DNA from: Geomonas agri
GTDB lineage: Bacteria; Desulfobacterota; Desulfuromonadia; Geobacterales; Geobacteraceae
Assembly (NCBI RefSeq): GCF_020179605.1
Contig: NZ_JAINZO010000002.1
Span: forward strand, 248,001-312,000
Reading direction: 5' to 3'
Length of the DNA stretch: 64,000 bases
Position 1 is the stretch's first letter. Each line of letters starts with the position of its first letter. The notes beneath the pieces were generated by a model, which saw only the letters and a list, made by a program, of their open reading frames with translations, did not search any database and was not told the DNA's origin. Positions 31,672-64,000 of the stretch are shown here, one piece after another. The position numbers were made by a program, and so were the translations under genes.

Positions 31672-31721
31672 GCACGGTCAAAAACCGTGCAAGATCAGCA
31701 GTATCCCCGGACGTACCGGGG
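31672..31721. promoter_or_regulatory. Two inverted repeats upstream of the first glycosyltransferase gene
   Basis: GCACGGT-CAAAA-ACCGTGC (31672-31690) and CCCCGG-ACGTA-CCGGGG (31705-31721). They lie 70-115 bases upstream of the sigma-54-type promoter, the usual position for enhancer-binding-protein sites. They could instead be a terminator for the genes before them, but no T tract follows. The rest of 31645-31888 has no coding signal that I can see. Confidence 0.4.
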
Positions 31722-31788
31722 CAAGGGAAGCGGGCGGAGTGGGACCGTGCCCTGCCAAAAGCTTCCGGCCCAGGGATAGTGCCAACGC

Positions 31789-31804
31789 TGGCATGGCAGT
31801 TGCT
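31789..31804 (+). promoter_or_regulatory. Sigma-54-type promoter upstream of the GT2-TPR gene
   Basis: TGGCATGGCAGTTGCT matches TGGCACG-N4-TTGCW with one mismatch; the -24 GG and -12 GC are exactly ten bases apart. Transcription would start near 31815, leaving a leader of about 75 bases. Confidence 0.6.
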
Positions 31805-31821
31805 TCCCTTATTTCTGTTTA

Positions 31822-31855: not shown

Positions 31856-31889
31856 ACCAGCAGGCCATCAAACCCAAATGGAGAAATTC

Positions 31890-33686
31890 ATGAGCCAGTT
31901 AGTCACCCGCCCCAGCGGCGCGATTGCCGTTATGGAGAATGGACCGCTTGTTTCCGCCATAGTCGTGACCCGGGATCGGGAAGCCCACCTCAGGGAATGC
32001 CTTGGCGAGCTGATGGAGCAGACGGTCTCCAGCAGGATGGAAGTAATCGTCGTCGACGCGGGCTCGGCGCAGTGCGAATGGGCAGTGGTGGCGGACCTGC
32101 AGCAACGTTACGCGAACCTCACCGCGCTGAAGCTCCCTTCCGGGGCGGTGTGCCGTGGGGTCAACATGGCTCTCAAGATGGCGTCGGGGAGATACCTCAC
32201 CATCCTTGACGTAACCGATCGCCTCAGGCGCGACGCCTACGAGCAGTTGGCGCTGGTCCTGGAGCAAAACGCAGCGGCCATGGTCGCTTACGGCGATACC
32301 TGCTTCACCGCGATCGCCCACGAAAGCTTCGCCAACCACACCAGCTACGGCAAGGTGATCTGGCCTGACTACACCCCTCAGCAGCTCTCCCAGCTCTCCG
32401 AAGTGGCCCCTCACCTGCTCTGGCGCAGGGAGGTGCACGACAGCGTCGGTTACCTCCCCGAAGGCTACCCGAACCACGGGCTGCGCGAGTTCCTGCTCAA
32501 TGTGCTGGAGCGCTTCCGCATCCAGCACATCAACGAATTCACCGGCCTCAAGCTGATTGCCGCCGTCCCGCAATCGGCACCGCAACAGGCGCCGCAACCG
32601 GTGGAGGTGCCGAGTGCTCCCGCCGCGGCGCAGGCCGTCACAGCCCCGCTACAGGCGGAGCCCGCCCCGATGCCGACGCCTGGGCCGGTCACGGTGCCGA
32701 GCGCCGAAGATGCTTACGCCGCCCTGAGGTCGCAGTTTCCCGCCGACGACATCGAACAGGCTGCCACCATGTTGCGGCAGCACCTTGCCAAGTATCCGCG
32801 GCACGCCGTCGCCCACAACGACCTCGCCGCGGTCAGCTACCAGCTCGGCGATCCCGACCAGGCCCTGGTCCATTACCGCGAGGCGGTGGCCCTGGAGTCC
32901 GACGAGGACGTCTACCTGAAGAACCTCGCCGACCTCCTCTACGTCGAGACCGGACAGACGGACGAGGCGATCAACATCTACCTGAAACTGCTCGAGAGGT
33001 CGCCGCGTGACGTGGAGACCCTGCTGAACCTCGGCATCATCTGCGAGGGGGTCGGACAGCCCAACGCAGCAGAGTCGTTCCTGCAAAGGGCGCTGGAGAT
33101 TGAACCGGCCAACATGACGGTGCGCGAGCGGCTTTCCGAACTAAGGCAAAACGCGGCAGTACCTGTGGCACCGGCGACAGCTGCAGCACCGGCACCAGCA
33201 GCCGAGGAGGAGGACGACCTCACGGCTGAAGACCACTACCTGAACTCGCAGGAACTGGTGAACCGGGGCGACCTCGCTGGGGCCGATCGGGAACTGCAGA
33301 GAATCGTGGCACTCTATCCCGATTTCGCGCCGGCCTATAATGACCTTGCCGTACTCGCCTACCAAAACGGTGACAAGGACACCGCCCGTCGCAACTACGA
33401 AAAGGCGGCGACGCTGGCCCCGGGCAACAGCACCTTCCAGAAGAATCTTGCCGACTTCTATTTCGTCGAGGGATACGACGTGGACGGGGCCATCAAGATC
33501 TACCTGGAGCAGCTCAGGAAAGAGCCCCGCGACATCGAGACGCTGATGAACCTCGGCAAGATCTGCACCATCCTGGACCGGCCGGAGGAAGCCCAGACCT
33601 TCTACGGCAAGGTGATCCACCTGGAACCCTGGAACCGCGACGCCCGCGAGTGCCTGGACACCCTGAAGCAGGCCGCCAACTCCTAG
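31890..33686 (+). CDS. GT2 glycosyltransferase-TPR fusion protein
   Basis: 598 residues from the ATG at 31890, which has GGAGA six bases upstream (another ATG at 31878 lacks a site). Residues 19-215 form a family-2 glycosyltransferase domain (VSAIVVTRDREAHLRECL, VIVVDAGS), though the later metal motif is not the usual DxD (LDVTDR). A Pro/Ala-rich linker (about 230-270) leads to TPR units at 270-417 and, after a second Ala/Pro/acidic linker, more TPRs at 444-594. TPR-bearing transferases usually dock on protein acceptors. It is first in the island, behind a sigma-54-type promoter, and is followed by its own terminator. Confidence 0.85.
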   Translation: MSQLVTRPSGAIAVMENGPLVSAIVVTRDREAHLRECLGELMEQTVSSRMEVIVVDAGSAQCEWAVVADLQQRYANLTALKLPSGAVCRGVNMALKMASGRYLTILDVTDRLRRDAYEQLALVLEQNAAAMVAYGDTCFTAIAHESFANHTSYGKVIWPDYTPQQLSQLSEVAPHLLWRREVHDSVGYLPEGYPNHGLREFLLNVLERFRIQHINEFTGLKLIAAVPQSAPQQAPQPVEVPSAPAAAQAVTAPLQAEPAPMPTPGPVTVPSAEDAYAALRSQFPADDIEQAATMLRQHLAKYPRHAVAHNDLAAVSYQLGDPDQALVHYREAVALESDEDVYLKNLADLLYVETGQTDEAINIYLKLLERSPRDVETLLNLGIICEGVGQPNAAESFLQRALEIEPANMTVRERLSELRQNAAVPVAPATAAAPAPAAEEEDDLTAEDHYLNSQELVNRGDLAGADRELQRIVALYPDFAPAYNDLAVLAYQNGDKDTARRNYEKAATLAPGNSTFQKNLADFYFVEGYDVDGAIKIYLEQLRKEPRDIETLMNLGKICTILDRPEEAQTFYGKVIHLEPWNRDARECLDTLKQAANS

Positions 33687-33771: not shown

Positions 33772-33799
33772 TAAAGTTAACAGCGCGGGATGCCGATAC
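33772..33799 (+). promoter_or_regulatory. FliA (sigma-28) promoter of the TPR/Ig-like protein gene
   Basis: TAAAGTTA, 12-base spacer, GCCGATAC: each box matches the sigma-28 consensus (TAAAGTTT, GCCGATAA) at seven of eight positions. The flagellin promoter at 60022-60049 has the same 12-base spacing. It lies 37 bases before the start codon at 33837. Confidence 0.82.
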
Positions 33800-33836: not shown

Positions 33837-35030
33837 ATGGCAACCCAGAAGACGGCCTGGGACTACCTGGGCGACATGTTCGACACGTTGACCTCCCAGA
33901 CCAGCATGAAGGCCCAGGCAGCGACCAGCGCCATGGCCAGCGGCGCCGGTTTTTTCCAGAAGAAGGACTACGCCCGTGCCACCAACGAGTTCAAGCGAGC
34001 CATCTCACTGGACCCCACCAACGCCCAGTCCTACAACTACCTGGCCAACGCCTACCTGGCGCAGAAGAAGTACGACGAGGCGATCAAGACCTACAAGAGT
34101 TCCCTTTCCCTCGATCCGACCCAGGATTCGGTACACACGAACCTCGGCAACATCTACCTGCAGCAGAAGAACTACAACCTCGCCGAGAAGGAGTTCAAGG
34201 ATGCGGCACGGTTGAACCCGACCGACACGGTGGCGCCGTACACCCTCGGGCAGCTCTATGTCCAGACCGGGCGCTATGCCGAGGCGGAGACGCAATTCAA
34301 GAAGGTCTCCAGGATGGCCCCCAACGACCCCAACCCCTACTACAGCCTGGGAGCGACCTACAACAAGGAAGGCAAATACGCCGAGGCGGTCAAGCAGCTG
34401 ACCCAGGCGGTGAAGCTGCGTCCCAAGATGACAGCTGCCCACTTCGAACTCGGGGTCGCCTACGCCGCCCTGGGGGACAGCACCAACGCACAGGCGGAGC
34501 TTACCACCGTGACCCAGCTTGACGCGACGCAGGGCGCCCTCCTGCAGCAGACCATCGCCCAACCCAAGTTCGTGGCCGCCGGCGGCGGTGATACCGACAC
34601 ATTCACCCCTGCACTCCAGGCCGGTACCGACCTCGGTAGTCTCCTCGGCGTCGACACCACCGGGACCAACATCCAGGCCAAGGAGTTCAGCCTCACCTTC
34701 TACTTCGACTCCTCAATGGATGCCAACTCGGTGCAGGACACCAGTAACTGGACCATCACCAAGGCCAGCGGCGGCGCGGCAGGTTACTACAACAACCTCC
34801 TGCCGGTGCTCCCCACCGAGGCCTACATCCCGCAGAACCCGACCAGCGTGATTTACGACCCGGAAAAACAAAGCGCCACCGTGACCTTCATGCTGAGCCA
34901 GAACTCCACCGGCGACGCCACCATCGATCCGGCGCACATGGTCTTCAAGTTCACCGGCACCGATGCCCGCGGCAAGGTCATGGACCCGACGGCGGACGAA
35001 TACGCCGGCGCGGCCGACGAACCGTTCTAA
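33837..35030 (+). CDS. TPR protein with C-terminal Ig-like domain, FliA-controlled
   Basis: 397 residues. About six TPR units fill residues 35-235 (for example SYNYLANAYLAQKKYDEAIKTY, HTNLGNIYLQQKNYNLAEKEF; both about 20 residues). The C-terminal 130 residues form a beta-rich domain with TFYFDSSMDANSVQDTSNWTI-like text resembling bacterial Ig-like (Big_5) modules. There is no signal peptide or catalytic motif. GGAGG precedes the ATG. A sigma-28 promoter directly upstream and a terminator before that make it a separate late-flagellar transcription unit. It could be a flagellar-export chaperone or scaffold that brings flagellin to the glycosyltransferases; this is inference. Confidence 0.8.
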   Translation: MATQKTAWDYLGDMFDTLTSQTSMKAQAATSAMASGAGFFQKKDYARATNEFKRAISLDPTNAQSYNYLANAYLAQKKYDEAIKTYKSSLSLDPTQDSVHTNLGNIYLQQKNYNLAEKEFKDAARLNPTDTVAPYTLGQLYVQTGRYAEAETQFKKVSRMAPNDPNPYYSLGATYNKEGKYAEAVKQLTQAVKLRPKMTAAHFELGVAYAALGDSTNAQAELTTVTQLDATQGALLQQTIAQPKFVAAGGGDTDTFTPALQAGTDLGSLLGVDTTGTNIQAKEFSLTFYFDSSMDANSVQDTSNWTITKASGGAAGYYNNLLPVLPTEAYIPQNPTSVIYDPEKQSATVTFMLSQNSTGDATIDPAHMVFKFTGTDARGKVMDPTADEYAGAADEPF

Positions 35031-35649: not shown

Positions 35650-37473
35650 ATGTGCGGCATATGCGGCATTATCGGTGAAAGTCGGCACGGCGCTGTCGTC
35701 TCGATGGTAAAGGCCCTCAGACACCGGGGGCCGGATGATTTCGGTATTCACGTCGAGACAGGGGCAGCCTTCGGCATGACCCGCCTCGCCATCCTTGACC
35801 TCTCTCCCGGGGGGCACCAGCCGATGCTGAGCCATGATGGCAACGTGCTCATCATCTACAATGGCGAACTCTACAACTTCAAAGAAGAGCGGACGATCCT
35901 CGAAGGGCGTGGCCATAGTTTCAGATCCCAGTCTGACACCGAAGTCGTCCTGGCGATGTACCTAGAGTACGGCGATGCCTTCCTCTCACGGATGCGCGGG
36001 ATGTTTGCTCTCGGCATCTACGACAAGCGCCCCGGCACCGGCAGGGAACGGCTACTGCTCGCACGTGACCAGTTCGGCATCAAGCCGCTTCTCTATCATT
36101 TGGCCAACTCCCGCCTCGTGTTCGCCTCTGAGATGAAGGCGATCCTCGCCAGCGGATTGGTCCCCAAGAACTTCAACCCCGATGCACTCCCCTTTCTTCT
36201 GGTGAAGGGATCGATACCGCAGCCGCTTTCCGCCATCACCGGCGTGACCATGCTCCCCCCCGCGCACTACCTCGTTATGCAGAATGGCTGCTGCAATACC
36301 AAACGCTACTGGTCTTTCGGGATCGATCGCGTACCCGGGCTCAGGGGCGCCAGTTTCCAGGAGCAGGTGGCCGCCGTGCGGCAACGGTTGGAGGAATCGG
36401 TACGGCTCCAGATGGTAAGCGACGTGCCAGTGGGTGCCTTCTTGAGTGGTGGGGTGGACTCCTCGCTCATGGTAGCCATGATGGCTCGCCTCTCCGACCA
36501 CCGCGTCAAGACCTTTTCGGTCGGTTTCGGCCCCGAAGGGAGCGCCATGGATGAAACCGACGATGCACGGCGTACGGCACAATTCGTAGGCAGCGACCAT
36601 ACGCGGGTGGAAATCGGTGGAAGCGATGTCCGCGACCGGATCTCACACATTGCGGCATCCCTTGACCAACCGACCGTTGATGGCGTCAACTCGTACCTCG
36701 TTTCGCTGGCCGTTAGCCGGCACGTCAAGGTAGCCATTTCCGGTACCGGTGGCGACGAACTCTTCGCTGGGTACCCGTGGTTCCTTAACGTCTTGCGGGC
36801 GGCACGTGCCGGGGACCGCGACTTGGCCCTCAGGTACGCCTCGGAGTACCTCATCTTCGATCTGCAACCTGCACTGTCGCTCCTTTCCGACGAGACGCAA
36901 CGCAACTTCGACGCCGACCGCTTCATGCACGATACGGTTCGCCTCCCCGACGAGCTCCCCGAAGCCGATCCTATTGAACGGGTATCGGTGCTGTGCCTCA
37001 GGGGATATACCCAAAATCAACTGCTGCGTGACATAGACGCCGCTTCCATGGCGCACTCTCTCGAAGTCCGGGTTCCCTTTTTGGACATTCCGCTGCTCGA
37101 TACGGCACTTTCACTCCCCCTCGCGGCCAAGCTCAACCCGGACACCGACCAGCTTGACCCGTACGCGGCAACCTATCGGCAGACGGGTGTAAAGCGTGCC
37201 CTCATCGAGATAGGGCGCAGCATCCTGCCTCCGGACATGGATGTCCAGCCTAAACGAGGTTTCGGAATGCCTTTTGCCACCTGGCTCAAGGGACCGCTAC
37301 GCGAAGTGATGGAGGACACGCTGTCCCCAACTGCAGTGGCTGGAAGGGGGCTGTTCAGTGTGCAGGGAGTGTCACGGGTTCGGGATGAGTTCTTGGCCGG
37401 CAGGGGAGGGTGGCCACAGCTCTGGATCCCGATGATGACCGAGCTTTGGTGTCGGGAGCTCCTGGACCAGTAG
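35650..37473 (+). CDS. asnB: Asparagine synthase (glutamine-hydrolysing), AsnB family
   Basis: 607 residues beginning MCGICG; the start at 35650 is fixed because Cys-2 must be the N-terminal nucleophile of the glutaminase domain, and GGAGAG lies upstream. The Ntn-type glutaminase shows RLAILDLSPGGHQPM and YNGELYN. The synthetase half shows the PP-loop SGGVDSS (about residue 265), GTGGDELFAGYPW and SLEVRVPFLD. It may make asparagine, but AsnB paralogues in polysaccharide clusters can amidate sugar acids or other carboxylates, which fits its position at the head of a glycosyltransferase operon. Confidence 0.9.
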   Translation: MCGICGIIGESRHGAVVSMVKALRHRGPDDFGIHVETGAAFGMTRLAILDLSPGGHQPMLSHDGNVLIIYNGELYNFKEERTILEGRGHSFRSQSDTEVVLAMYLEYGDAFLSRMRGMFALGIYDKRPGTGRERLLLARDQFGIKPLLYHLANSRLVFASEMKAILASGLVPKNFNPDALPFLLVKGSIPQPLSAITGVTMLPPAHYLVMQNGCCNTKRYWSFGIDRVPGLRGASFQEQVAAVRQRLEESVRLQMVSDVPVGAFLSGGVDSSLMVAMMARLSDHRVKTFSVGFGPEGSAMDETDDARRTAQFVGSDHTRVEIGGSDVRDRISHIAASLDQPTVDGVNSYLVSLAVSRHVKVAISGTGGDELFAGYPWFLNVLRAARAGDRDLALRYASEYLIFDLQPALSLLSDETQRNFDADRFMHDTVRLPDELPEADPIERVSVLCLRGYTQNQLLRDIDAASMAHSLEVRVPFLDIPLLDTALSLPLAAKLNPDTDQLDPYAATYRQTGVKRALIEIGRSILPPDMDVQPKRGFGMPFATWLKGPLREVMEDTLSPTAVAGRGLFSVQGVSRVRDEFLAGRGGWPQLWIPMMTELWCRELLDQ

Positions 37474-37593: not shown

Positions 37594-39930
37594 ATGAGCG
37601 CCATAAAAGCGGAGCACGGGATCAATGCCGCCGGCGAAAAGGAAGGACTGGCAAGCATCAGCATGGTCTGTAACGAGCATTCTCTGCCACTTACCGTCCG
37701 CGATGCACCGGATCCTTCAATGGCGAAGCTCGGCTGCGACGCCGGCTGCCTCTTTCCGGTGGTGGAAGGGGTCCCTCGCTTCGTAGGGTCGGAACAGTAC
37801 GCCTCTTCGTTCGGACTGCAATGGAAAACCTTCCGGAGCACCCAGCTCGACTCCTGCAACGGTACGACCATCTCGAGGGATCGCCTGCAGCGGCTTTTTG
37901 GGGGAGACCTTTCGCTTTTAAAGGGGAAGAACGTGCTGGAGGCAGGGTGCGGCGCCGGACGCTTCACCGAGATCATGCTGAAGGAGGGCGCAAACGTCTT
38001 CGCCTGCGACATCTCCAGCGCCGTGGAGGCAAATTTCGACAACTGCCGCAACCTGCAGCGGGGAACCAACTACTTCGTATGCCAGGCCGACCTGCGCCAG
38101 CTCCCGCTCGCCCCGGAACAGTTCGACATCGTGATCTGCATCGGGGTGATTCAGCACACGCCCGACCCCGAGGAAACCATGGCGGCCCTTTGCCGGCAGG
38201 TCAAACCGGGAGGGATCCTGGTGATCGATCACTACACTTACGGCTACCCCGTGTCCCGCTCACGGGAAATGTTGCGCAAACTGCTGCTCCAGGTCCCCCC
38301 CCAGGCGGCCCTCGACTTCTGCACGGACCTGGTTGATCTTTACTGGCCGACACATGAATTCTTCTGGCAGAACCGTGGCACGCCTCCCTTCGACCGGCTG
38401 CGCCCGTCCTTCCTCGAACTTTCCCCCATCGTTGACTACCACGAGGCCTACCCGGAGCTTGGCAAGGAACTGAAGACGTGGGCCCTTCTCGATACCCACG
38501 ACACCCTCACAGACACCTTCAAACACCTGAGGGATGCAGCGTCGATAAAACAGCAGCTGGAGAGTTGCGGCATGGGAGAGGTCGTGACTTCCGAGGGCGG
38601 CAACGGCATCGAGGCCAGGGCAGTTAAGCCTTTACGCCGCCCCCCCGCAGAGGCGCCGTTTTTGCCACCGGACCGGGCCCAGGAAAAGACCAGGATACTG
38701 ATCGTAGCCTGGGGGTATTCCATCCACGCGCGCCGTCGCATCCAGGTATTCACTGCCGACCCGCGCTTCGACGTGGTAGTGGCCTCGAACCACGACTACA
38801 ACTTCGCCGGGGCCCGAAACGTGATGCTAGACGGCAACAGCGAGAACACCTTCAACGTCGATCCCGATGGCGAGGAAGTAAGGTTCCTGTCCGACTACGC
38901 CCAAAGGCTCGGAGTTACCAACCTTGAACCGTTCACCAAGGAGATCTGCACGGGACTGCATGATTACATCATCCTGCGCGACCTGGTGCGTGAATTCGCT
39001 CCGCAGGTCATGCTACTGCAGACGCTGCTGTACCCCTGCTACCTAGCCCTCACCCTGGGGCGAAACATCCCGTACCTCGTCACCTTCTGGAACGGCGACG
39101 TCACGTGGTGGGCACAGTACGACGGCATCGAACAGAGGTTCAAGAAGGAGATCGTAACGCAGGGCGCTTTGAACGCAGCGGCCGTCACCGTGAATTCCGA
39201 AAAAGCCTTCCAGGCCTGCCTCGACTACGGGGTCGCCCCGGAAAGAATCCACCTGATCCGCTACCCCGGTGCCGACCTCGCGCGCTTTTGCCGGCGAGAC
39301 CAGGAAGAAGCACGAGTAGCCCTGGCAATAAACAACAGAAAGGTGGTCCTTTGCCCGCGTGGCCTCGGCGCATACCTGAACGCCGATGTCATTATCGAGG
39401 CAGCAGGCCTCGTCTGCCGCGCCCATCCCGAGGTCCTGTTCCTCTTTGTCTCGGGCGTGGGGATGGAGCTGTGGGAGGAGTACCTGGCCCGCGGAAGGGA
39501 ACTCGGAATTGCCGAACAGCTGCGCCACGACGGGCAGGTAGAGTGGGAAAAGATGCCGCTTTACTACAACGCCGCCGACCTCATGGTTTCGATCTCCTCG
39601 AAAGATTCGCTGCCGAACTGCATGCTGGAGGCCATGGCGTCGCATACCCCCGTCCTGATGGGCGACATCCCTCCCATAAGGGACTGGGTTTCTGAGGGCG
39701 AGACGGGGTTCTTCACCCCGCCAACCGACCACCGCGTACTGGCGCAAAGGATCGTAGAACTGCTTTACGGTGCCGACGAAAAAGTCGAGAAGGCAGTGCA
39801 AAAGGCGGCAGCGCTTGTTGCTGCACAGGCCAACTCTGCCGTCAACAATGCCAGGATGCTTGACCTCGCGCTTTCAGTCGCCGCCTCCGGCAAGGCACCA
39901 GCGCAGGCATTTGCCGCACCGGCCCCATGA
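37594..39930 (+). CDS. SAM methyltransferase-GT4 glycosyltransferase fusion
   Basis: 778 residues. A short Cys-containing N-terminal segment (MVCNEHSLPL..LGCDAGCLFPVVEGVPRF) resembles a Trm112-like zinc element. A class I methyltransferase follows with VLEAGCGAGRFTEIM (about residue 115), DLRQLPLAPEQFDIVIC and LCRQVKPGGILVIDH. The second half, from about residue 365, is a GT-B family-4 glycosyltransferase with NSEKAFQACLDYGVAPERI and the donor-site region SISSKDSLPNCMLEAMA (about 665). It would add and methylate sugars in one polypeptide. No good ribosome-binding site lies near the chosen ATG, so the true start could be slightly different. Confidence 0.87.
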   Translation: MSAIKAEHGINAAGEKEGLASISMVCNEHSLPLTVRDAPDPSMAKLGCDAGCLFPVVEGVPRFVGSEQYASSFGLQWKTFRSTQLDSCNGTTISRDRLQRLFGGDLSLLKGKNVLEAGCGAGRFTEIMLKEGANVFACDISSAVEANFDNCRNLQRGTNYFVCQADLRQLPLAPEQFDIVICIGVIQHTPDPEETMAALCRQVKPGGILVIDHYTYGYPVSRSREMLRKLLLQVPPQAALDFCTDLVDLYWPTHEFFWQNRGTPPFDRLRPSFLELSPIVDYHEAYPELGKELKTWALLDTHDTLTDTFKHLRDAASIKQQLESCGMGEVVTSEGGNGIEARAVKPLRRPPAEAPFLPPDRAQEKTRILIVAWGYSIHARRRIQVFTADPRFDVVVASNHDYNFAGARNVMLDGNSENTFNVDPDGEEVRFLSDYAQRLGVTNLEPFTKEICTGLHDYIILRDLVREFAPQVMLLQTLLYPCYLALTLGRNIPYLVTFWNGDVTWWAQYDGIEQRFKKEIVTQGALNAAAVTVNSEKAFQACLDYGVAPERIHLIRYPGADLARFCRRDQEEARVALAINNRKVVLCPRGLGAYLNADVIIEAAGLVCRAHPEVLFLFVSGVGMELWEEYLARGRELGIAEQLRHDGQVEWEKMPLYYNAADLMVSISSKDSLPNCMLEAMASHTPVLMGDIPPIRDWVSEGETGFFTPPTDHRVLAQRIVELLYGADEKVEKAVQKAAALVAAQANSAVNNARMLDLALSVAASGKAPAQAFAAPAP

Positions 39931-47541: not shown

Positions 47542-48329
47542 CGACTGCACCAGAGACATCCGTGAGCGGAGCCCCACGCATCTCAGTGGTGGTTCCCTCC
47601 TACAACTACGCCCGCTACCTTGAGGTGTGCCTCGAATCGATCCTGTCCCAGCGTTACCCCAACCTGGAACTGATCGTCCTCGACGGGGGGTCCACCGACG
47701 GCACGGTTGAACTCCTGCAACGCTACGACATGCACATTGCCTACTGGCGCAGCCACAAGGATGCCGGGCAGTACGCCGCTATCGAGGAGGGGCTGAACCG
47801 CGCCAGCGGCGAGATCATGACCTGGTTGAACGCCGACGACATGTTCCACCCCGGCGCCTTCGACGCCGTCGGCCGCATCTTCGCGCAGTGCGCCGAGGTC
47901 GAGTGGCTCATGGGGCGCCCCAACAGCTTCGACGAGCAGGGGAGGCAAAAGCACGTCCTCACCTACCTGCCGCTCAACTCGCGCGCCAAGTACCTGGCGG
48001 ATGAGGAGTTCATCCAGCAGGAGGGGGTGTTCTGGCGCCGCGCGCTTTGGGAGAGAAGCGGGGCCTACATCGACAAGACCCTGCCGCTGGCAGCCGACCT
48101 GGAGCTGTGGGCCCGATTCTTCAGGAGCGCGCGCCTGTTCTCGGTCGACCAGTTGCTCGCCGGGTTCCGCGACCACCCGCTGCAGAAATCCAAGGACAAG
48201 GCTGGCTACACCACCGAGGCGGACCGGGTGCTGGCCCGCGAGCGCGAGCTCTTCGCCGCCGAAAAGACACCTTTCAACCCACCGGCGCCGCTCCCCATCC
48301 TGATCCAGGGCGACCGGGTGATCCTGTGA
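47520..48329 (+). CDS. GT2 family glycosyltransferase
   Basis: 269 residues from the ATG at 47520, which has GAGGGA upstream and overlaps the preceding gene by 22 bases, suggesting translational coupling. Single GT-A domain: SVVVPSYNYARYLEVCL, IVLDGGSTDGTVELL, the metal site LNADDMFHPGAF, and QEGVFWRRALWERSG for acceptor binding. The pattern resembles transferases of O-antigen and exopolysaccharide clusters. The stop TGA overlaps a possible GTG start of the next gene. Confidence 0.9.
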   Translation: MPQHGKVATAPETSVSGAPRISVVVPSYNYARYLEVCLESILSQRYPNLELIVLDGGSTDGTVELLQRYDMHIAYWRSHKDAGQYAAIEEGLNRASGEIMTWLNADDMFHPGAFDAVGRIFAQCAEVEWLMGRPNSFDEQGRQKHVLTYLPLNSRAKYLADEEFIQQEGVFWRRALWERSGAYIDKTLPLAADLELWARFFRSARLFSVDQLLAGFRDHPLQKSKDKAGYTTEADRVLARERELFAAEKTPFNPPAPLPILIQGDRVIL

Positions 48330-55537: not shown

Positions 55538-57316
55538 ATGAGCGCGGAGCACTCGTCACAGGGGCAGGCACAGCTGAAATACGTCGAGCTTCTCCTGCGC
55601 AAGGGGATGCAGGAGGAGGCACGCGCCCGGCTCGAGGAGCTGGTGCGGCAGGAGCCGCCGGTGGCAGCGGCCTGTTACCTGTTGGCGGTGCTCAAGGGGG
55701 AGGACGGCGAGGCGCGCGAGGCGGTCGATTTGCTGCTCAAAACCCTCTCGCTGGAGCCGGAGAACACCAAGGCACTCAACGCGTTGGGAGCCGCGCTGCG
55801 GCAGATGGGGCAGCTCGAGCAGGCCGCGGCGGCATTCGCCGAGACGCTGCGCATCGAACCCGGTTTCGGCGAGGCGCGCATCAACCTGGCTCTGCTCCTG
55901 AAGGAGGCACTGCGCTTCACCGAGGCGGAAGAGCTGCTGCGGACCGGGATAGCACTGGAGCCCGGCTCGGTGCGCCTCAACTACAACCTCGCCAACGTGC
56001 TGCACGCGCAGGGAAGGAGCCTGGCAGCTGTGGCGGCCTACCGGGAGACGCTGCGCCTGGACCCGGACCACCTGGACGCCCGGCAGAACCTCCTCTTCGC
56101 CCTGCACTACTCGCCGCAGTTCAGCCGACGCGAGATCTACGCCGAGCACTTGAAGGCAGCCCGCAGCCGGCCGTTCCGGCCTGAGCGCCGGGACCTTGCC
56201 GACCGCCCCCATCCCGGAGGCCGCATCAGGGTCGGCTACCTCTCCCCCGACTTCCGAGGCCACGCCGTGGCGAGCTTCATTGAGCCGGTGCTGCGCGAGC
56301 ACGACCGCGGCCGCTTCCAAATCTTTTGCTACGCCAACGTCGCCGCTCCCGACGCAACCACCGAGCGCCTCAAGGGGCTGTGCGACCAGTGGCGCGACAT
56401 CCACGGCATGGCCGACCACAACGCCGCTGCCCTCATCGCCGGCGACGGCATCGACATCCTCTTCGACCTGGCCGGGCACACTTCCGGTAGCCGGCTCCCG
56501 CTCTTTTGTCACCGTCCCGCCCCGATCCAGATCACCTGGATCGGCTATCCCGACAGCACCGGGTTAAGGGAGATGGACTACCGCATCACCGACGCGCTGG
56601 CCGACCCGCCGGGAACCGACGACCGCCTGCACAGCGAATTGCTGCTACGCCTCCCCCGCACCTTCTGCTGCTACCTTCCCCCCGCCGAGGCGCCGGAGCT
56701 GGTCCCGCCCCCCTGCGGAGGCAACGGCCACATCACCTTCGGCTCCTTCAACAACTTGGCGAAAGTCACCCCGGAGGTAATTGCACTCTGGAGCCGCGTG
56801 CTGCACGCGGTCCCCGACTCCCGCCTGCTCCTGAAGGCCAAGCCGCTGGTGGACCACGGCGTGCGCGGCCGCATCCTGGCACTGTTCCAGGAGCACGGGG
56901 TAGCGGCCGAGCGCATCGAGCTGGACCAGGGGCAGCCCGGCACCCGCGAACACCTGGAGCGGTACCAGCGCGTCGACATCGGCCTCGACACCTTCCCCTA
57001 CAATGGCACCACCACGACCTGCGAGGCGCTCTGGATGGGGGTCCCGGTTATCTCCCTCGCCGGCGACCGCCACTGTTCGCGCACCGGCGCGAGCATCCTC
57101 ACCAACTGCGGACTGGCGGACCTGGTGACCACGAGCGAAGCGGCCTATCTGGACATGACGCGACAGGTGGCCAAGGATCACGCCACCCTGCGCGAATTCA
57201 GGGCAGGCGCACGTGAGCGACTGCGGCGCTCGCCGCTTTTGGATGCGGGCGGGGTGACGCGGGAACTGGAGACGGTGCTGGCAGAACTGTGGGCGACCTC
57301 GCGCAGGCCTAAGTAG
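55538..57316 (+). CDS. TPR-GT41 O-GlcNAc-transferase-like protein
   Basis: 592 residues. About five TPRs (8-195) precede a GT41 catalytic region (228-585): GYLSPDFRGHAVASF, DLAGHTSGSRLPLF, IQITWIGYPDSTGL, GSFNNLAKVTPEV and DTFPYNGTTTTCEALWMGVPV. It is a paralogue of the preceding protein without the extra C-terminal domain, and starts one base after its stop codon. It probably adds the first sugar to Ser/Thr of a protein, plausibly the flagellin encoded nearby; the donor sugar is unknown. Confidence 0.92.
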   Translation: MSAEHSSQGQAQLKYVELLLRKGMQEEARARLEELVRQEPPVAAACYLLAVLKGEDGEAREAVDLLLKTLSLEPENTKALNALGAALRQMGQLEQAAAAFAETLRIEPGFGEARINLALLLKEALRFTEAEELLRTGIALEPGSVRLNYNLANVLHAQGRSLAAVAAYRETLRLDPDHLDARQNLLFALHYSPQFSRREIYAEHLKAARSRPFRPERRDLADRPHPGGRIRVGYLSPDFRGHAVASFIEPVLREHDRGRFQIFCYANVAAPDATTERLKGLCDQWRDIHGMADHNAAALIAGDGIDILFDLAGHTSGSRLPLFCHRPAPIQITWIGYPDSTGLREMDYRITDALADPPGTDDRLHSELLLRLPRTFCCYLPPAEAPELVPPPCGGNGHITFGSFNNLAKVTPEVIALWSRVLHAVPDSRLLLKAKPLVDHGVRGRILALFQEHGVAAERIELDQGQPGTREHLERYQRVDIGLDTFPYNGTTTTCEALWMGVPVISLAGDRHCSRTGASILTNCGLADLVTTSEAAYLDMTRQVAKDHATLREFRAGARERLRRSPLLDAGGVTRELETVLAELWATSRRPK

Positions 57317-57470: not shown

Positions 57471-57860
57471 CTAACCCGCGGTCTCGGGGTTGGTCCTCAA
57501 CCCCGCAGCGATATTGAAGTTGATGTCGATGACGATGGAGAGCTTTTCCGCAGTCGGGAAAGCCATCACCTCGAAGAACCTCTTGTCCACGAACAGGCTC
57601 AGGTTCAGGAGGTCTTCCCGCAGTTTCCTGGGCATCGGGTGGTTGGGCTCCGTCAATTCGGCCTGAAAGAAGCTCCAGACCTTCTGGTTATACTTTATCG
57701 CCTCCAGCATCTTGGCTTCGCGGTCCGGGGCATCCCAGTTTTCCTGGACGGCCTTGAGCATCAGCCCCGCTTTGGTCAGCACGGAGGCTTCGAGTTCGCG
57801 TCCCGACATGCTCTCCTTCTGGATACCGACGTACTCCTTGATCGCGTTGTTAGTTTGCAT
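57471..57860 (-). CDS. flaF: Flagellar biosynthesis regulator FlaF
   Basis: 129 residues. The FlaF family pattern is clear: LTKAGLMLKAVQENWD, EAIKYNQKVWSFFQAEL, LPRKLREDLLNLSLFVDKR-like text and IDINFNIAAGL at the C terminus. In alphaproteobacteria FlaF promotes flagellin translation or secretion and works against FlbT. It overlaps flbT by 11 bases and is last in the flagellin-unknown-flbT-flaF unit. Confidence 0.92.
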   Translation of the reverse strand: MQTNNAIKEYVGIQKESMSGRELEASVLTKAGLMLKAVQENWDAPDREAKMLEAIKYNQKVWSFFQAELTEPNHPMPRKLREDLLNLSLFVDKRFFEVMAFPTAEKLSIVIDINFNIAAGLRTNPETAG

Positions 57861-58244: not shown

Positions 58245-58988
58245 TTAGCTCAATCCTTTTAGGAATTGAGGGTGCTGTTGCGCCACCCCCTGAGTAACCG
58301 ATTCTGCAAATTGCTGGCCAATTTCGACACTTTTTTGTGCCGCGCGCGATTCGCTGGCAATGGGGTCAGAAACCAGTGATTCCGAGCCCTTGGGCGCCGA
58401 GAAGATGTTGGCGAAACGCCCGTCGGCAACGAAATTCGCGGTAGCCGCGGCAATGTCACCTCGCAGCCCCGTCAGCGACTGCGCCGCCGCGTCAAGTTTG
58501 TCCACGTGGTCAGCAATTTGACTGTCGTCCGCATTCATACCGAGCGGCTCGGGAAGCGCCACCTGCTTGCGGGCCTCGACAACGGATGGAGGGGGAGGAA
58601 GGGTTAGCTCATCGATCTCCTTGCGAAGCGCGTTGTAGCTCCTGAGGAGTTTGACCCTTTCCTTGTCTTGCGGTGCGAAGGGAGGAAAATTTTTTACTAT
58701 CGTTTCCAGAGGTTGCTTTAGCTTGTCAATCTTTTGACCCAGTTCCTGGGCCACCTTGTCGGTCTCCCTGATGGCAGCTGCGGTGGTGTTTTGCCGCTCG
58801 TTTTGCAAACGGATGTCCGCCAGCTTGCGGTCCCCCTGCCCGGAAAAGAGCACCTGGTCTGCGATTACGGGGTCTTGGGTGTTTTGTTTTTCGGGTTGGG
58901 GATTTTGGATAGAGCTGGAGAGGGAGGCGAGTTGGGGCGAGGAAGTGGTGACTGGAACGCTCTCTGGTTGCAGTCGATCTATTAGCAT
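58245..58988 (-). CDS. Unknown coiled-coil protein between flagellin and flbT
   Basis: 247 residues, not recognised. The N-terminal 45 residues are rich in Ser, Pro, Gln and Asn and look disordered, like flagellar secretion signals. Residues about 60-110 (AAIRETDKVAQELGQKIDKL) form a predicted coiled coil; a PPPPSV stretch and another helical region with Ala-rich repeats (about 165-200) follow. No Cys, membrane segment or enzyme motif is seen. A G-rich ribosome-binding site precedes the ATG. Its position suggests an exported flagellar component, a FlaG-like accessory or a chaperone; FlaG itself is usually shorter. Confidence 0.8.
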   Translation of the reverse strand: MLIDRLQPESVPVTTSSPQLASLSSSIQNPQPEKQNTQDPVIADQVLFSGQGDRKLADIRLQNERQNTTAAAIRETDKVAQELGQKIDKLKQPLETIVKNFPPFAPQDKERVKLLRSYNALRKEIDELTLPPPPSVVEARKQVALPEPLGMNADDSQIADHVDKLDAAAQSLTGLRGDIAAATANFVADGRFANIFSAPKGSESLVSDPIASESRAAQKSVEIGQQFAESVTQGVAQQHPQFLKGLS

Positions 58989-59047: not shown

Positions 59048-59866
59048 TTAGAACAGTCTGAGGACTGCCTGAGCTGCCTGAGAAGACATGGAGAGCGAGG
59101 TGGTGCCCAAGCTCTGACGGGTCTGCAGCATCAGCATGTTGGCACCTTCCTGGTTCATATCGGCCAGGGTCAGGTTGTCAGCACCGGTTTGCAGGGTGTT
59201 GATCATGGAGTCGGTGAAGTTCTGACGGGTCGTGATGATGTTCAGGTTTGCCGCCAGGGTCTGGGTGTTCGACCTGAGAGTCGAGATCGCGGTATCCATC
59301 TTCGCCGTGTCGGTGGTGATGTCCGAGTTGGTTGACCAGCTGCTGCTGGCCGGAGAGAGGCTCAGACCGCTTGCGTTCCCCAGGAAGCCAACAACGTTCA
59401 GGTTGGAGCTCGCATCTTCGTTGAAGTTGACGGTCAGGGTGTTGGTGGAGCTCAGCAGGTTAAGGCCGCGGTAACCGGAGTCGGAGGAGATGTTGTTGAC
59501 CTGGCTGCGGATGGTGTCGTACTGGGTTGCCAGTTTCGACCTGGTAGCGGTGTCGCTGGTCGACAGAGCCGACTGGGCGATACCTTTAGCAGCGTTGATC
59601 AGACCGGTGATAGCGGTGATACCTGCGTTGGCTGCCGAAACCGTCTGAACCGCCTCGGACATGCCGTCCTTGCGGTCAGCAAGGTCGCTGGCACGCTGGT
59701 TTGCGTTCTGGGCTGCGAAGTAGTTGGTCGGGTTGTCCAGAGCGCTGTTGACCTGCTTGCCAGAGGAAAGCCTCTGCTGGGTCCTGTTCAGGAGCTGGCT
59801 GGTCTGTTGGAGGTTGAGAAGGTTGGTCCTCATGCCTGCGGTGAGAGAGATGTCGCTAGTTGCCAT
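59048..59866 (-). CDS. fliC: Flagellin, short form
   Basis: 272 residues. The start at 59866 has AGGAG seven bases upstream; an earlier in-frame start at 59950 adds residues that do not fit flagellin. The conserved D0/D1 helices are intact at the N terminus (ISLTAGMRTNLLNLQQ, LSSGKQVNSALDNPTNYF) and C terminus (ITTRQNFTDSMINTLQTGADN cited around residues 210-230, ending VLRLF). The centre (about 135-190) is short and rich in Ser, Thr and Asn (SSTNTLTVNF, SPASSSWSTNSD), so outer D2/D3 domains are lacking and many hydroxyl acceptors are exposed. The N-terminal pattern is of the type I know from alphaproteobacterial flagellins. Confidence 0.96.
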   Translation of the reverse strand: MATSDISLTAGMRTNLLNLQQTSQLLNRTQQRLSSGKQVNSALDNPTNYFAAQNANQRASDLADRKDGMSEAVQTVSAANAGITAITGLINAAKGIAQSALSTSDTATRSKLATQYDTIRSQVNNISSDSGYRGLNLLSSTNTLTVNFNEDASSNLNVVGFLGNASGLSLSPASSSWSTNSDITTDTAKMDTAISTLRSNTQTLAANLNIITTRQNFTDSMINTLQTGADNLTLADMNQEGANMLMLQTRQSLGTTSLSMSSQAAQAVLRLF

Positions 59867-59908: not shown

Positions 59909-60021
59909 GTTGAAAACCGTGTCGATACTGTCTTCTTCAGTGTCGGGCATCCTGCCCTACGGCGAGTAACTGATGAATTTCACCCCCTCATCGCCGGCGC
60001 GTCCTGCGCGTTTGTAAAGAA

Positions 60022-60049
60022 TATCGACACGGCGGGCCCAAAACTTTAA
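60022..60049 (-). promoter_or_regulatory. FliA (sigma-28) promoter of flagellin
   Basis: Minus strand: perfect -35 TAAAGTTT (60049-60042), 12-base spacer, -10 GTCGATAT (60029-60022; consensus GCCGATAA). It lies about 150 bases upstream of the flagellin ATG. Confidence 0.85.
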
Positions 60050-60084: not shown

Positions 60085-63057
60085 TTATTGGCAGCTCAAT
60101 CTCTCTTCCAGGGCGGCGCGGATGCGGCGCATCACGCCGGGCCAGGCGCCTGGGCGCTCCTGCCTGAAGATACGCATGGTGGGATACCAGGGGGAATCCT
60201 CGCGCTCGGCAAACCAGCGCCAGTCGCAGGAGTAGGGCAACAGAAGCCAGACCGGCATCCCCATGCCGCCGGCCAGGTGCGCGGCCGCGGTGTCCACGGT
60301 GATGAGCAGATCGAGCCCGGCCAGGATGGCGGCGCTGTCGCCGAAATCCTGGATCTGCGGCGCGAGGTCGATGGCGGGAAGTACCTCGAGGTCAGGGGCT
60401 TCGCCCAGCTGCAGAGAATAAAAGAGCACACCAGGCATATCGGCAAGAGTGCCCAAATGCTTGAAAGGGCAGGCGCGATTCTTGGGCAGCGGCCCGCCGC
60501 GCCACACCAGCCCGACCTTGAGCGTAGCCCCCTCCTCGAGCATGAGGCTCCAGAGGGTGGCGCGCCGCTCCTCAGGAAAGAGATAGGGGTGCCAGGGGGG
60601 CATGTTGTCCAGGGTGGTGCCGAACAGGTGCGGCAGGGAAATGAGCTGGACCTGGTAGTCGCACGCCGGGAGCTGGTCCGCCGGGCCGCAGACCGTCGCG
60701 GCACCGGGAACGCGCGCCAAGAGCGGCTTGAGCGCCGGGATCTGGCAGCGAACTACCACCCTCCCCCCGCGCTGCGCCACTAGCGGAGCATAGCGGATGA
60801 ACTGCAGCGTGTCGCCCAGCCCCTGCTCGCACTGCAGCAGGATGGTGCGCCCGGAAAGTTCTTCGCCGCGCCACACCGGTACGGCGAGTTCCGGCTCGCA
60901 CCCCGCCAGGCGCCACTGGTACTCGCGCCACCCCTCTTGAAAATCCCCCACCGACAAAAGGCTCAAGGCGAGGTTCCAGTGCGCCTCAGGGTGATCGGGC
61001 GCCAGGCGCAACAGTTCCCGGTAGGTAGCGATGGCCTGTTGCGGCTGCATCAGGTCCTGGTAGGCGGTGCCCAGGTTTATGCGGGCCTCCAGGTAGCCGG
61101 GGTCGAGCGCGATGGCGCGCAGGTACAGCTCCACCGCCTGCGCCGGCTGTTCCAGCACCTGCAGACAGGAGCCCAGGTTCGCGTAGGCGGGAAGGTAGCC
61201 CGGGTTCAGCTCGACGGCGCGCCGAAAGAGGGGCTCGGCGGCGGCGTGCTCGGCGCGGCCAACCAAAAGCGTCCCGAGGTTGTTGTAGGCGTCGGCGAGG
61301 GCCGGCTTCAGCTCCATGGCGCGCCGGTAGCTTGCCTCGGCCGCGACCACGAGCCCCTGGTCCTGCAGCGCGAGCCCGAGGTTGTTGTGGACCTCGGCGC
61401 AGTCGGGTAGCCGGGACAAGAGGGCGCGGTAGAGCCTCACCGCCCCGTCGAGATCCCCCTCACCCCTCAGCCGGTTCGCCTCCCGGAACAGGAGGTTCGG
61501 GTCCTGGAGCGACGCCTCGGGGAGGGGCGTAATCTGGCGCACCACCGCCTCGATGACCGGCTGCCACTGTCCCGGGGCCGGCTGGCGGTGCAGGGTGACG
61601 CTCGGATACCAGGGCGAGTCGGCGCGGCCGTAGAGCCAGCGCCAGTCGCAGGAGAAGGGAAGCAGCAGGTGAACCGGCTTGCCCATGGCGGCGGCGAGGT
61701 GGGCCACCGCGGTGTCCACCGAAACCACCAAGTCGAGGTTGTCGATGAGGGCGGCGGTGTGCGTGAAGTCCTTGAGGTCGGCAGTCAGGTCGACGAGGGT
61801 GTCGGCACCGGACAGCAGTGCCACGTCCTCGGGGGCCGCGCCCAGTTGCAGGTTGTACAGGGTCACCCCGGGCACGGATGCCAAGGGAGCCAGGGCCTGC
61901 GCCGCAAGCGAGCGGTAGCGGTCCCTCTTGTAGCCGACACTGCCGGCCCAGACCACGCCGACCTTGAGTCCCGCCGCCGGCGCCACCTTTTGGCGCCACT
62001 CATCGCCCAGTGCGGCGTCCGTCTTGAGCGGCGGCGATTGCGGCGGGATGGAGTCGAGGGTGGTGCCCAGCAGGTGCGGCAGGCTCATGAGATAGGTGTA
62101 GCTGTCGAAGGGGGGCGGAGCGTCGCCGGCGGCAAAGAGAGCGATGGCGTCTCCCTGCGCGGCGAAAAGCGGCAAAAGCTCGCGGCGGCACTCGAGCACC
62201 ACCTTTTCCCCGCGCCACGCCAGCAACTGCGCGTAGCGGTAGAACTGGATGGCGTCGCCGAACCCCTGCTCGGCCCGGACCAGGAGCGTGCGGCCGTTCA
62301 AAGGGGATCCGTCCCACATCTGCCGTCCCATGAAGGCGGGATCGAAGCCGCCGGCGGGGGCCTTCAGCCGCCACTGGTACTCGCGCCACCCCTCCCGGTA
62401 GTCGCCGAGGGCGAGCAGGGCGAGGGCGAGGTTCCAGTGGGCGTCGACGCTGTTAGGATCGAGCGCCAGGGCCACGCGCAGGGACGCCAGCGCATCGTCG
62501 AACTGGTTCAGGGCAAGCAGCGAGCCGCCGAGATTCACCCACCCTTTCAGGTGATCCGGCTGCAGTTCCACCACCTTCCGGTAGCACTGCACCGCCCCCT
62601 GCCACTCTCCCTGGGCGCGCAGGGCGTGCCCGAGGTGGTAATAGGCGTTGGCGTAGCCGGGATCAAGCGCGATGGCGTCGCAGAAGCGGGCCACGGCCGC
62701 ATTCAGTTGCCCCTGCTTCAAGAGCGTGTTGCCTAAGTTGCCCATGGCCTCCGGGTAGTCGGCTTTCAGTTCCAGGGCGGTGCGGTAACACTGCTCCGCC
62801 TCGTCGATCCGCCCCAGGTCCTCGAGGATCACGCCCAGGTTGTTGTGTAGCTCGGCCTGCGCCGGGTCGAGGGCTAGGGCCCGGGAGAAGGCATCCAAAG
62901 CCTGCTGCTGTCGCCCTAAAATACGCGCCAGGGCGCCCGAAAGGGTGAGCAGGTCCACGTCGTCCGGCGTCTCCCGCAGGAGTTCCCGGCACAACTCGTC
63001 CGCCCGCTCGACCCGGTTTTCGGCCAGGGTCCGTTTCAGTTCATCGCGGTTTTGCAT
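60085..63057 (-). CDS. Duplicated TPR-GT9-like glycosyltransferase
   Basis: 990 residues built as two copies of TPR block plus transferase-like domain: TPR 1-225, domain 255-485, TPR 490-700, domain 735-985. Each domain contains an (E/A)EQG(F/L)GD(A/T)(I/L)QF motif, a Walker-like VGVVWAGS / VGLVWRGG, and near the end SVDTAVAHLAAAMGKP or TVDTAAAHLAGGMGMP followed by SCDWRW and DSPWYP. These fit the heptosyltransferase-like GT9 group found fused to TPRs. The donor and acceptor are unknown; a protein acceptor is plausible because of the TPRs. It starts three bases after the upstream gene's stop codon, so the two are one operon. Confidence 0.88.
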   Translation of the reverse strand: MQNRDELKRTLAENRVERADELCRELLRETPDDVDLLTLSGALARILGRQQQALDAFSRALALDPAQAELHNNLGVILEDLGRIDEAEQCYRTALELKADYPEAMGNLGNTLLKQGQLNAAVARFCDAIALDPGYANAYYHLGHALRAQGEWQGAVQCYRKVVELQPDHLKGWVNLGGSLLALNQFDDALASLRVALALDPNSVDAHWNLALALLALGDYREGWREYQWRLKAPAGGFDPAFMGRQMWDGSPLNGRTLLVRAEQGFGDAIQFYRYAQLLAWRGEKVVLECRRELLPLFAAQGDAIALFAAGDAPPPFDSYTYLMSLPHLLGTTLDSIPPQSPPLKTDAALGDEWRQKVAPAAGLKVGVVWAGSVGYKRDRYRSLAAQALAPLASVPGVTLYNLQLGAAPEDVALLSGADTLVDLTADLKDFTHTAALIDNLDLVVSVDTAVAHLAAAMGKPVHLLLPFSCDWRWLYGRADSPWYPSVTLHRQPAPGQWQPVIEAVVRQITPLPEASLQDPNLLFREANRLRGEGDLDGAVRLYRALLSRLPDCAEVHNNLGLALQDQGLVVAAEASYRRAMELKPALADAYNNLGTLLVGRAEHAAAEPLFRRAVELNPGYLPAYANLGSCLQVLEQPAQAVELYLRAIALDPGYLEARINLGTAYQDLMQPQQAIATYRELLRLAPDHPEAHWNLALSLLSVGDFQEGWREYQWRLAGCEPELAVPVWRGEELSGRTILLQCEQGLGDTLQFIRYAPLVAQRGGRVVVRCQIPALKPLLARVPGAATVCGPADQLPACDYQVQLISLPHLFGTTLDNMPPWHPYLFPEERRATLWSLMLEEGATLKVGLVWRGGPLPKNRACPFKHLGTLADMPGVLFYSLQLGEAPDLEVLPAIDLAPQIQDFGDSAAILAGLDLLITVDTAAAHLAGGMGMPVWLLLPYSCDWRWFAEREDSPWYPTMRIFRQERPGAWPGVMRRIRAALEERLSCQ

Positions 63058-63060
63058 CTA

Positions 63061-64000
63061 CTATCGATCTCCTTTGGCACGGACCAGCAGTACCAGCTGC
63101 TGTGCCACCCGCTCCACCACCTCGCCCCAATCACCGCGGCGGCGCTGGCGGAACAGCCGGGCGGTCGGGTACCACGGGGAATCCTCCCGCTCCATCAGCC
63201 AGCGCCAGTCGCACGCCATGGGCAACAGCACCCAGACCGGCACGCCCAGCCCCCCGGCCAGGTGCGCTACGGCGGTGTCGGCCGAGATGACCAGGTCGAG
63301 CTGGCTCAGGATGGCGGCGGTATCGGCGAAGCTCTTGATGCCGGCGCCCAAGTCGGTAAGCTCCATCCCCGGCGGCGGGGTGGCCGCCTGCTCCGCACCG
63401 TCCCCTACCTGGAGCGCACAGAAGCGAGCCCCGGTGACCCGCGCCAGCGGCGCAAAGAGCGAGAGGGTGAGCGAGCGTTTCAGGTCGTCCTTGTAGGTCT
63501 TCCTGCCGGCCCAGACCAGCCCGACCAGTACCCCCTCAGCCGGCAGCGCGCCCTTCCAACGCTCCACCAAGGCAGGGTCGGCGGCGAGATAGGGCACGGC
63601 GGCTGGGATAGAGTCGAGGAGCGTGCCGCACAGGTACGGCAGGCTCATGAGCGACGCGTGGCAGTCAAAGTCGGGGAACGGCTCGCCGCGCACCAGCACC
63701 CGCGCGACACCCGGCACCGTGGTGAGCACCGGCGCTATAGGCTTCGCCTGGCACTGCACCAGTACCGTCGCTCCCTGCGCCGCCAAAACCGGCGCGTAGC
63801 GCACGAACTGCAAGGTGTCGCCGAAGCCCTGCTCGGCGTGGAGCAGGATGGTCCTTCCCTGCAGGGAAGAGCCGTCCCAAAGCGGCTGCGGCAGGTCCAG
63901 GCGCGGGATCGGATCGACCTTCTCAAAGCGCTGTTCGTACCCTCGCCATCCTTCACGGTACTCGCCGAGCTGCAGTTGTACCAAGGCGAGGTTCCAGCGC
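63061..64000 (-). CDS. TPR-GT9-like glycosyltransferase (N-terminal part beyond window)
   Basis: Only the C-terminal 313 residues are inside. The frame is open to the last base (RWNLALVQLQLGEYREGW), the usual last TPR before the transferase domain, so the start lies beyond the window. The domain repeats the motifs of its downstream neighbour: AEQGFGDTLQF, VGLVWAGRKTYKDD, SADTAVAHLAGGLGVP, ACDWRW and DSPWYP. It is the third copy of this domain in tandem and the first gene of the pair in the direction of transcription. Confidence 0.87.
   Translation of the reverse strand, partial: RWNLALVQLQLGEYREGWRGYEQRFEKVDPIPRLDLPQPLWDGSSLQGRTILLHAEQGFGDTLQFVRYAPVLAAQGATVLVQCQAKPIAPVLTTVPGVARVLVRGEPFPDFDCHASLMSLPYLCGTLLDSIPAAVPYLAADPALVERWKGALPAEGVLVGLVWAGRKTYKDDLKRSLTLSLFAPLARVTGARFCALQVGDGAEQAATPPPGMELTDLGAGIKSFADTAAILSQLDLVISADTAVAHLAGGLGVPVWVLLPMACDWRWLMEREDSPWYPTARLFRQRRRGDWGEVVERVAQQLVLLVRAKGDR

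Follow-up and report, generated by a model that had tools for sequence, protein, structure and literature searches.

A candidate flagellin glycosylation island of TPR-fused glycosyltransferases in Geomonas agri and its relatives in the Geobacterales

Introduction

Maf proteins encoded together with nonulosonic-acid genes form an established flagellin-glycosylating system, and FlbT is known from Caulobacter-type flagella. In Caulobacter crescentus, as set out in the parts of PMC7591256 on which we rely, the TPR domain of FlmG binds flagellin, which its GT-B domain glycosylates in the cytoplasm ahead of FlaF-dependent export, and the sugar that FlmG transfers is pseudaminic acid from the NeuB pathway. 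A second relevant enzyme is SPINDLY, a plant protein O-fucosyltransferase of TPR-GT41 architecture; its residue Y744 is tied to the choice of GDP-fucose, and XcOGT and TtOGT carry a Tyr too, according to the excerpted text of PMC9715652. Clusters of transferase genes at a flagellin or flagellar locus have also been described, for Aeromonas Group II (PMC7874193) and Geobacillus (PMC5109656). A search of open literature returned no paper on flagellin glycosylation in the Geobacterales. Here we compare with these systems a locus of Geomonas agri in which large TPR-fused transferases surround flagellin, FlbT and FlaF.

Results

The window, the whole stretch of DNA that was analysed, comprises 64,000 nucleotides (bases 248001-312000 of contig C2) of a genome of 4.68 Mb in 7 contigs; unless stated otherwise, positions are those of the window. 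Its FlbT is 95% identical to the FlbT of Geomonas paludis and Geomonas azotofigens, placing the genome in the Geomonas/Citrifermentans group of the Geobacterales, the order that had been guessed from the sequence at the outset. Every gene tested in the first 31 kb has a housekeeping role (recQ, rpoD, dnaG, hisD, murA, prfA and rho), and an EamA transporter gene (30483-31352) lies just left of the island. The island itself consists of nine plus-strand genes at about 31.9-57.3 kb, followed by minus-strand genes from 57.5 kb. A first-pass annotation had described nine plus-strand and two minus-strand glycan-related genes around flagellin, FlbT and FlaF. All are present, but two of the nine are not glycosyltransferases, one being a TPR protein and the other an asparagine-synthase-like amidotransferase, which leaves seven glycosyltransferases on the plus strand. 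The six TPR proteins that it counted in the window were confirmed by Pfam.

The left end of the plus-strand set is a GT2 domain followed by TPR repeats (about 31878-33686 by Pfam; the start codon is uncertain and the open reading frame begins at 31779). A sigma-28-like promoter site on the same strand (33772-33799, 12 of 13 consensus bases) precedes the gene for a 397-residue TPR protein (33837-35030), in which Pfam and NCBIfam show no transferase domain and whose C-terminal region is without a Pfam match. The amidotransferase follows (about 35650-37473 if the MCGIC start is assumed, within a frame open from 35557; Asn_synthase 262.7 bits, TIGR01536), and after it come a methyltransferase-GT4 fusion (37594-39930) and a protein of 2494 residues in which Pfam places GT4, GT2, GT2, GT4 and GT4 regions in that order (40057-47541). 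An easily overlooked gene for a 269-residue GT2 (47520-48329) separates this giant from a protein of about 1294 residues in which Pfam finds TPR repeats besides three GT2 regions (about 48338-52222). Two TPR-GT41 genes complete the set: one encodes 1105 residues (52219-55536) and ends in a fused GT23-like (NodZ/FUT8) domain (54544-55533), and the other encodes 592 residues (55538-57316).

On the minus strand lie FlaF (57471-57860; PF07309, 113 bits), the sole FlbT of the genome (57850-58239; PF07378, 145 bits), a 247-residue protein that neither Pfam nor NCBIfam matches (58245-58988) and the likely acceptor, a flagellin of 272 residues when counted from MATSDIS (59048-59866; open reading frame from 59950), with its own sigma-28-like site upstream on the same strand (60021-60048, 11 of 13 bases). 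Two TPR-GT9 genes follow on this strand. The first encodes a 990-residue TPR-GT9-TPR-GT9 protein, a candidate starter enzyme (60085-63057, by Pfam), and the second a 1470-residue TPR-GT9 protein of which the window holds the C-terminal part (63061-64000), the gene extending past the window end (L004:3062-7474). To the right of the window are a GT4-like gene, motB, motA, flgL, flgK, flgI, flgH, flgA and a gene of the flgE/F/G type; thus the island adjoins a flagellar cluster.

As had been claimed at the outset, the hallmarks of a Wzx/Wzy polysaccharide locus were not found: among the island proteins scanned, Pfam reports neither a polymerase nor a flippase nor an initiating lipid-carrier transferase. 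Of 14 proteins put through a simple hydropathy scan, 12 showed no segment above threshold and two showed one borderline segment, against six segments in the EamA control.

Two further flagellin genes of the genome, 92% and 82% identical to that of the island, are unlinked to FlbT (G000:C2:751698-752522 and G000:C1:763972-764835). Their loci (19 kb) gave one GT2 and one GT4 match, and no GT9 or GT41 match was found within 19 kb of either gene.

The two GT41 enzymes named in the first-pass annotation were borne out by Pfam (PF13844, 180 and 197 bits). By whole-protein score, the best PDB match of the 1105-residue protein is plant SPINDLY (449 bits), with Thermobaculum OGT at 312 and human OGT at 305 bits. 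The motifs corresponding to SPINDLY H495, N661, K665, Y744 and T748 are conserved in both GT41 domains of the window, equivalents of the catalytic Lys and His being present in each; the place of S496 is taken by Ala. Among 58 GT41 domains of the loci compared below, strict patterns recovered the His in 50, the Lys in 38 and the GTTT-type motif in 51, with Tyr at the Y744 place in all 51 matched motifs. A gmd gene lies elsewhere in the window genome (585 bits). Of the four GT41 matches in that genome, the two listed are the island genes, and we take the other two to be their second halves.

The C-terminal domain of the 1105-residue protein resembles GT23 enzymes in sequence (NodZ 46.8 bits, FUT8 24.3 bits) and in motifs, HVRGGDK (HxR) and TDD being invariant in eight sequences. 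The fold predicted for it (pLDDT 67.7, a moderate value) is also that of GT23, since Foldseek returned FUT8 and NodZ as its best matches. A search of 277 genomes of the class found relatives of this domain in 16, and in 13 of these 16, the window genome included, it stands at the FlbT locus in one open reading frame with GT41. These 13 include 12 of the 15 FlbT-bearing genomes of the genus. In the genome G118, both domains share a 1036-residue frame about 13 kb from FlbT.

The GT9 assignment of the 990-residue protein rests on PF01075 (38.5 bits against a cut-off of 22) and on a confident AlphaFold2 model of its first GT9-like domain (pLDDT 87.6), which has a GT-B heptosyltransferase fold and matches WaaC, heptosyltransferase II and TibC at TM values of about 0.5-0.58. 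At E 0.1 the domain matched no PDB sequence.

FlbT is present in 89 of the 141 genomes of the order. We compared 89 FlbT loci of 86 further genomes of the order (4-20 kb each, 67 of them at the full 19.9 kb), mapping domains by phmmer with queries cut from the window and its right flank. A complete flagellin was found at 83 of the 89, and its length falls into two groups, 241-308 residues (73 loci) and 498-678 residues (10 loci). GT2, GT4, GT9 or GT41 matches occur at 70 of the 73 short-flagellin loci and are TPR-fused at 68, so the expectation that transferases would stay linked to flagellin across the Geobacterales was upheld. By comparison, 20 control stretches of 20 kb, taken at round coordinates in 20 of the same genomes, held no GT9, GT41 or TPR-fused transferase, and two of the 20 gave plain GT2/GT4 matches. 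The three short-flagellin loci without transferases in the stretch analysed are L085, L097 and L126; in the genomes of L097 and L126, a second FlbT locus carries them. TPR-fused transferases were found at two of the ten long-flagellin loci, a TPR-GT41 at L084 and a TPR-GT9 at L125.

Enzyme sets vary by lineage, with GT9 only at 22 short-flagellin loci and mixtures at the rest. The giant fusions had been judged unusual. This view could not be kept, since a transferase frame of at least 900 residues is found at 61 of the 73 short-flagellin loci, making such fusions common in the order; with all loci taken together, the two longest run to 3532 and 3388 residues. Frames of 3769 (G074:C23), 3750 (G101:C20) and 3044 residues (G065:C114), each with several GT41 matches, lie outside the FlbT stretch analysed. 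FlbT and GT41 tend to occur jointly: of the 141 genomes, 70 have both, 19 FlbT only, 18 GT41 only and 34 neither; as the genomes are related, any test value on these counts is a guide only.

Within the genus, 11 relatives of the window locus keep its right end, namely the multi-domain GT2 protein, one or two TPR-GT41 proteins and then FlaF to TPR-GT9. The left end is kept as well: all six pieces that reach EamA carry GT2 and the TPR protein beside it, a further two stop at GT2 or at the TPR protein, and those of G030, G031 and G045 do not extend as far as the left end. Between these conserved ends, some 6-19 kb differ among the 11 relatives. An AsnB match was found in two of them, and the methyltransferase-GT4 fusion in none. 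The amidotransferase, the methyltransferase-GT4 gene and the 2494-residue protein all lie in this variable part, which makes it more likely that they set the kind of glycan than that they attach it.

The slot next to FlaF has another occupant in some relatives. At L067 it holds Maf (PF01973, 107.5 bits), PseB-like and PseC-like proteins, NeuB (204.5 bits) and a CMP-sugar synthetase. Full-length Maf occurs at five of the ten long-flagellin loci (L067, L068, L082, L090 and L121; flagellins of 562-678 residues) and at none of the 73 short-flagellin loci, and GT2, GT4, GT9 and GT41 transferases are absent from all five Maf loci. Neither system was seen at the long-flagellin loci L066 (an 8.0 kb piece), L071 (11.5 kb) and L080 (8.1 kb), of which the last ends in a TPR frame adjoining FlbT, so that a cut-off TPR-transferase is possible there. 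The window genome has no PF01973 match and one partial match to the NeuB family, at 50.6 bits, a score obtained in a different search mode from the 204.5 bits of the L067 protein.

The proposition that Maf-like domains never occur in TPR-transferase islands was rejected. Five genomes gave weak matches to PF01973 (29-42 bits, in two cases under the cut-off), placed 14-15 kb from FlbT in G030, G031, G038 and G045 and inside the 3388-residue transferase frame in G058; islands of this kind are thus not wholly free of Maf-like domains. Such small or weak Maf/MptE-like domains sit in the variable part. The protein concerned in G030 (L142:17358-18407) has 349 residues, scores 39.8 bits and shows a TPR match below the cut-off.

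FlbT is absent from some mates of the genus and family that have another flagellin class together with Maf; among them, the genus mates G039, G041 and G044 have strong Maf matches. An equation of Maf with long flagellin was likewise rejected as a general rule, as it holds at FlbT loci only: in the FlbT-less strong-Maf genomes G039, G041, G044, G023, G048 and G050, the flagellin frames on the Maf contig have 288-324 residues (high-scoring class). G023 also has a 503-residue flagellin frame elsewhere, and G022 gave no flagellin match. Whole flagellin systems seem to have been exchanged within the Geobacterales.

In a tree of FlbT and FlaF, the five Maf loci group in a single clade despite belonging to two families, a pattern suggestive of a locus that moves as a block. 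The tree holds three changes of flagellin length and five of transferase presence, giving one independent pair on supported branches and three on all branches, and a sign test of the coupling was not significant. A Fisher test of the same coupling gives 1.8e-7, a value that ignores the relatedness of the loci and is not taken as proof. Hence we regard the coupling of flagellin length with glycosylation system, drawn from genome comparison, as suggestive.

Promoter sites were scanned in stretches of 250-300 bases with the sigma-28-like consensus TAAAG-N14-16-GCCGATAA, at a threshold of 11 of 13 bases. A site lies upstream of 66 of 87 flagellin genes, against a background of 8 in 778 random stretches and 1 of 90 stretches upstream of FlbT; none was found upstream of GT41 (0/57), GT9 (0/64) or GT2 (0/73) genes. 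The TPR protein of the left end has a site in 10 of 18 rows and in nine of the ten from the genus, the tenth being a 125-residue fragment. This placement, as well as the presence of its homologues at the transferase-free FlbT loci L071, L085, L097 and L126, indicates that the 397-residue protein is probably the product of a late flagellar gene rather than a transferase. A sigma-54 pattern gave no signal (15 matches against 10.9 expected, with 14 of 100 shuffles reaching 15).

The 247-residue protein has a homologue at 79 of the 89 FlbT loci, with or without transferases. No clear Ser/Thr acceptor patch was seen in flagellin, the conserved Ser/Thr columns being spread over the protein; Ser and Thr make up 29% of the middle region of short flagellins against 25% overall, and 27% against 26% in long flagellins.

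Discussion

Taken together, the layout of the locus and its comparison across the order make it probable that the island serves to glycosylate flagellin in the cytoplasm, with no need of a lipid carrier; the flagellin acceptor, the starter, the sugars and the order of steps we infer. In this scheme the TPR-fused transferases would hold newly made flagellin and attach a first sugar to Ser/Thr, the likeliest starters being the TPR-GT9 and TPR-GT41 proteins encoded beside flagellin, FlbT and FlaF. The chain could then be extended or modified by the GT23-like domain, the GT2/GT4 multidomain proteins, the methyltransferase and the amidotransferase, after which FlaF would hand flagellin to the export apparatus. 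The earlier proposal of a protein acceptor, flagellin, thus gains support from comparison rather than from chemistry, given transferases at 70 of 73 short-flagellin loci and Maf in the same slot at five loci. So does that of a complex glycan built on flagellin by multidomain enzymes, with the reservation that the three proteins of the variable part more likely concern the kind of glycan than its attachment. Also in favour of glycosylation of flagellin are the contrast with the control stretches, the joint occurrence of FlbT and GT41, the match to SPINDLY, the result of the hydropathy scan and the precedent of FlmG. Against it count the TPR-transferases at the long-flagellin loci L084 and L125, their lack at L085, L097 and L126, the weak Maf-like domains, the want of a clear acceptor patch in flagellin, of a PDB sequence match for GT9 and of sigma-28-like sites before the transferase genes, and the 18 genomes with GT41 that are without FlbT.

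The strongest alternative is that the island makes LPS, capsule or another surface polysaccharide and that its flagellin neighbourhood is historical only. Polysaccharide loci commonly contain GT9, GT2 and GT4 domains, the middle of the island varies in the manner of an antigen locus, and two LPS enzymes, WaaC and heptosyltransferase II, are likewise close to the GT9 model. Nevertheless, we consider this reading improbable, since Pfam reports none of the polymerase, flippase and initiating-transferase genes in the island, the linkage to flagellin and FlbT is kept across genera despite different enzyme sets, and in relatives the same slot holds Maf and nonulosonic-acid genes.

A second alternative keeps the flagellar link and moves the acceptor: the TPR protein, the 247-residue protein or a hook-associated protein, rather than flagellin, would be the main substrate. 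In its favour, the sigma-28 site before the TPR protein in the genus is like that of flagellin, and the 247-residue protein stands between flagellin and FlbT at most loci. Both, however, have homologues at transferase-free loci (the 247-residue protein at L067, the TPR protein at L071 and L085), and FlmG modifies flagellin itself, as the consulted part of PMC7591256 describes, so that we give this reading very little credence. Slighter still is the chance that the TPR-GT41 and TPR-GT9 enzymes act broadly on cytoplasmic proteins, in the manner of eukaryotic OGT and SPINDLY, with flagellin as one substrate among many, for although the similarity to both enzymes and the 18 FlbT-less genomes with GT41 fit it, the listed GT41 matches of the window genome (two of four) are the island genes and chain-extending enzymes alongside would be odd for a single-sugar mark.

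Returning to glycosylation of flagellin, we put forward a more detailed version as a speculation that is doubtful as a whole. A carrier-free line would build a complex heteroglycan on cytoplasmic flagellin, with TPR-GT9 and SPINDLY-like GT41 enzymes starting it, the GT41-GT23 fusion able to perform two steps within a single polypeptide and multi-transferase proteins of 1300-2500 residues extending it. In the Geobacterales the locus would switch between a minimal, short flagellin with TPR-transferases and Maf/nonulosonic acid with a flagellin that has a large extra region, a glycan coat thereby replacing the outer domains. If this is true, O-glycosylation of the FlmG kind would be untied from nonulosonic acids and would form a modular platform, its TPR domains bringing transferases of several families to flagellin. 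Work on Geomonas and Citrifermentans could then address whether the outer domains of flagellin are replaceable by a sugar coat, and these genera would offer a route to the donor of bacterial SPINDLY-like enzymes as well as TPR-transferase fusions for protein glyco-engineering.

Among described systems, we read this one as FlmG-like, with an oligosaccharide that would be built on flagellin without nonulosonic acid. Like FlmG, as far as the portion of PMC7591256 drawn on here describes it, the Geomonas proteins join TPR to a GT-B domain and are encoded beside flagellin, FlbT and FlaF; binding of flagellin by their TPR repeats is putative, and modification would likewise take place in the cytoplasm before export. 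In contrast to FlmG, as judged from its description in that source, the Geomonas genome shows no PF01973 match and no full-strength NeuB match that would point to a nonulosonic-acid donor pathway, and it has other transferase families, several candidate starters and many putative extenders. The Maf and nonulosonic-acid system occupies the same slot next to FlaF at the loci of five relatives, but its enzymes are unrelated and at FlbT loci it accompanies long flagellins.

Similarly, SPINDLY shares with the window enzymes the TPR-GT41 architecture and the active-site motifs in both domains (PMC9715652, in the excerpt used), and differs in that S496 is Ala in the window and one window enzyme carries the C-terminal GT23-like domain; use of GDP-fucose by the window enzymes is putative. 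The alpha-1,6-fucosyltransferases NodZ and FUT8 (GT23) agree with that domain in sequence, in the HxR and TDD motifs and in predicted fold; unlike them, it is the C-terminal module of a TPR-GT41 protein, and its scores are weak. TibC-type protein heptosyltransferases have the GT-B heptosyltransferase fold predicted for the window GT9, which differs in being TPR-fused and doubled and which WaaC matches just as closely or better. Finally, as described in the text available to us, the Aeromonas Group II (PMC7874193) and Geobacillus (PMC5109656) islands resemble the Geomonas island in having transferases clustered with flagellin or flagellar genes and in their conserved and variable parts. A word search of that text found no mention of TPR in either paper; the enzymes of those islands are mostly single-domain, and Aeromonas Group II has pse genes and Maf-2, whereas the Geomonas island combines its clustered genes with TPR-fused, multidomain transferases.
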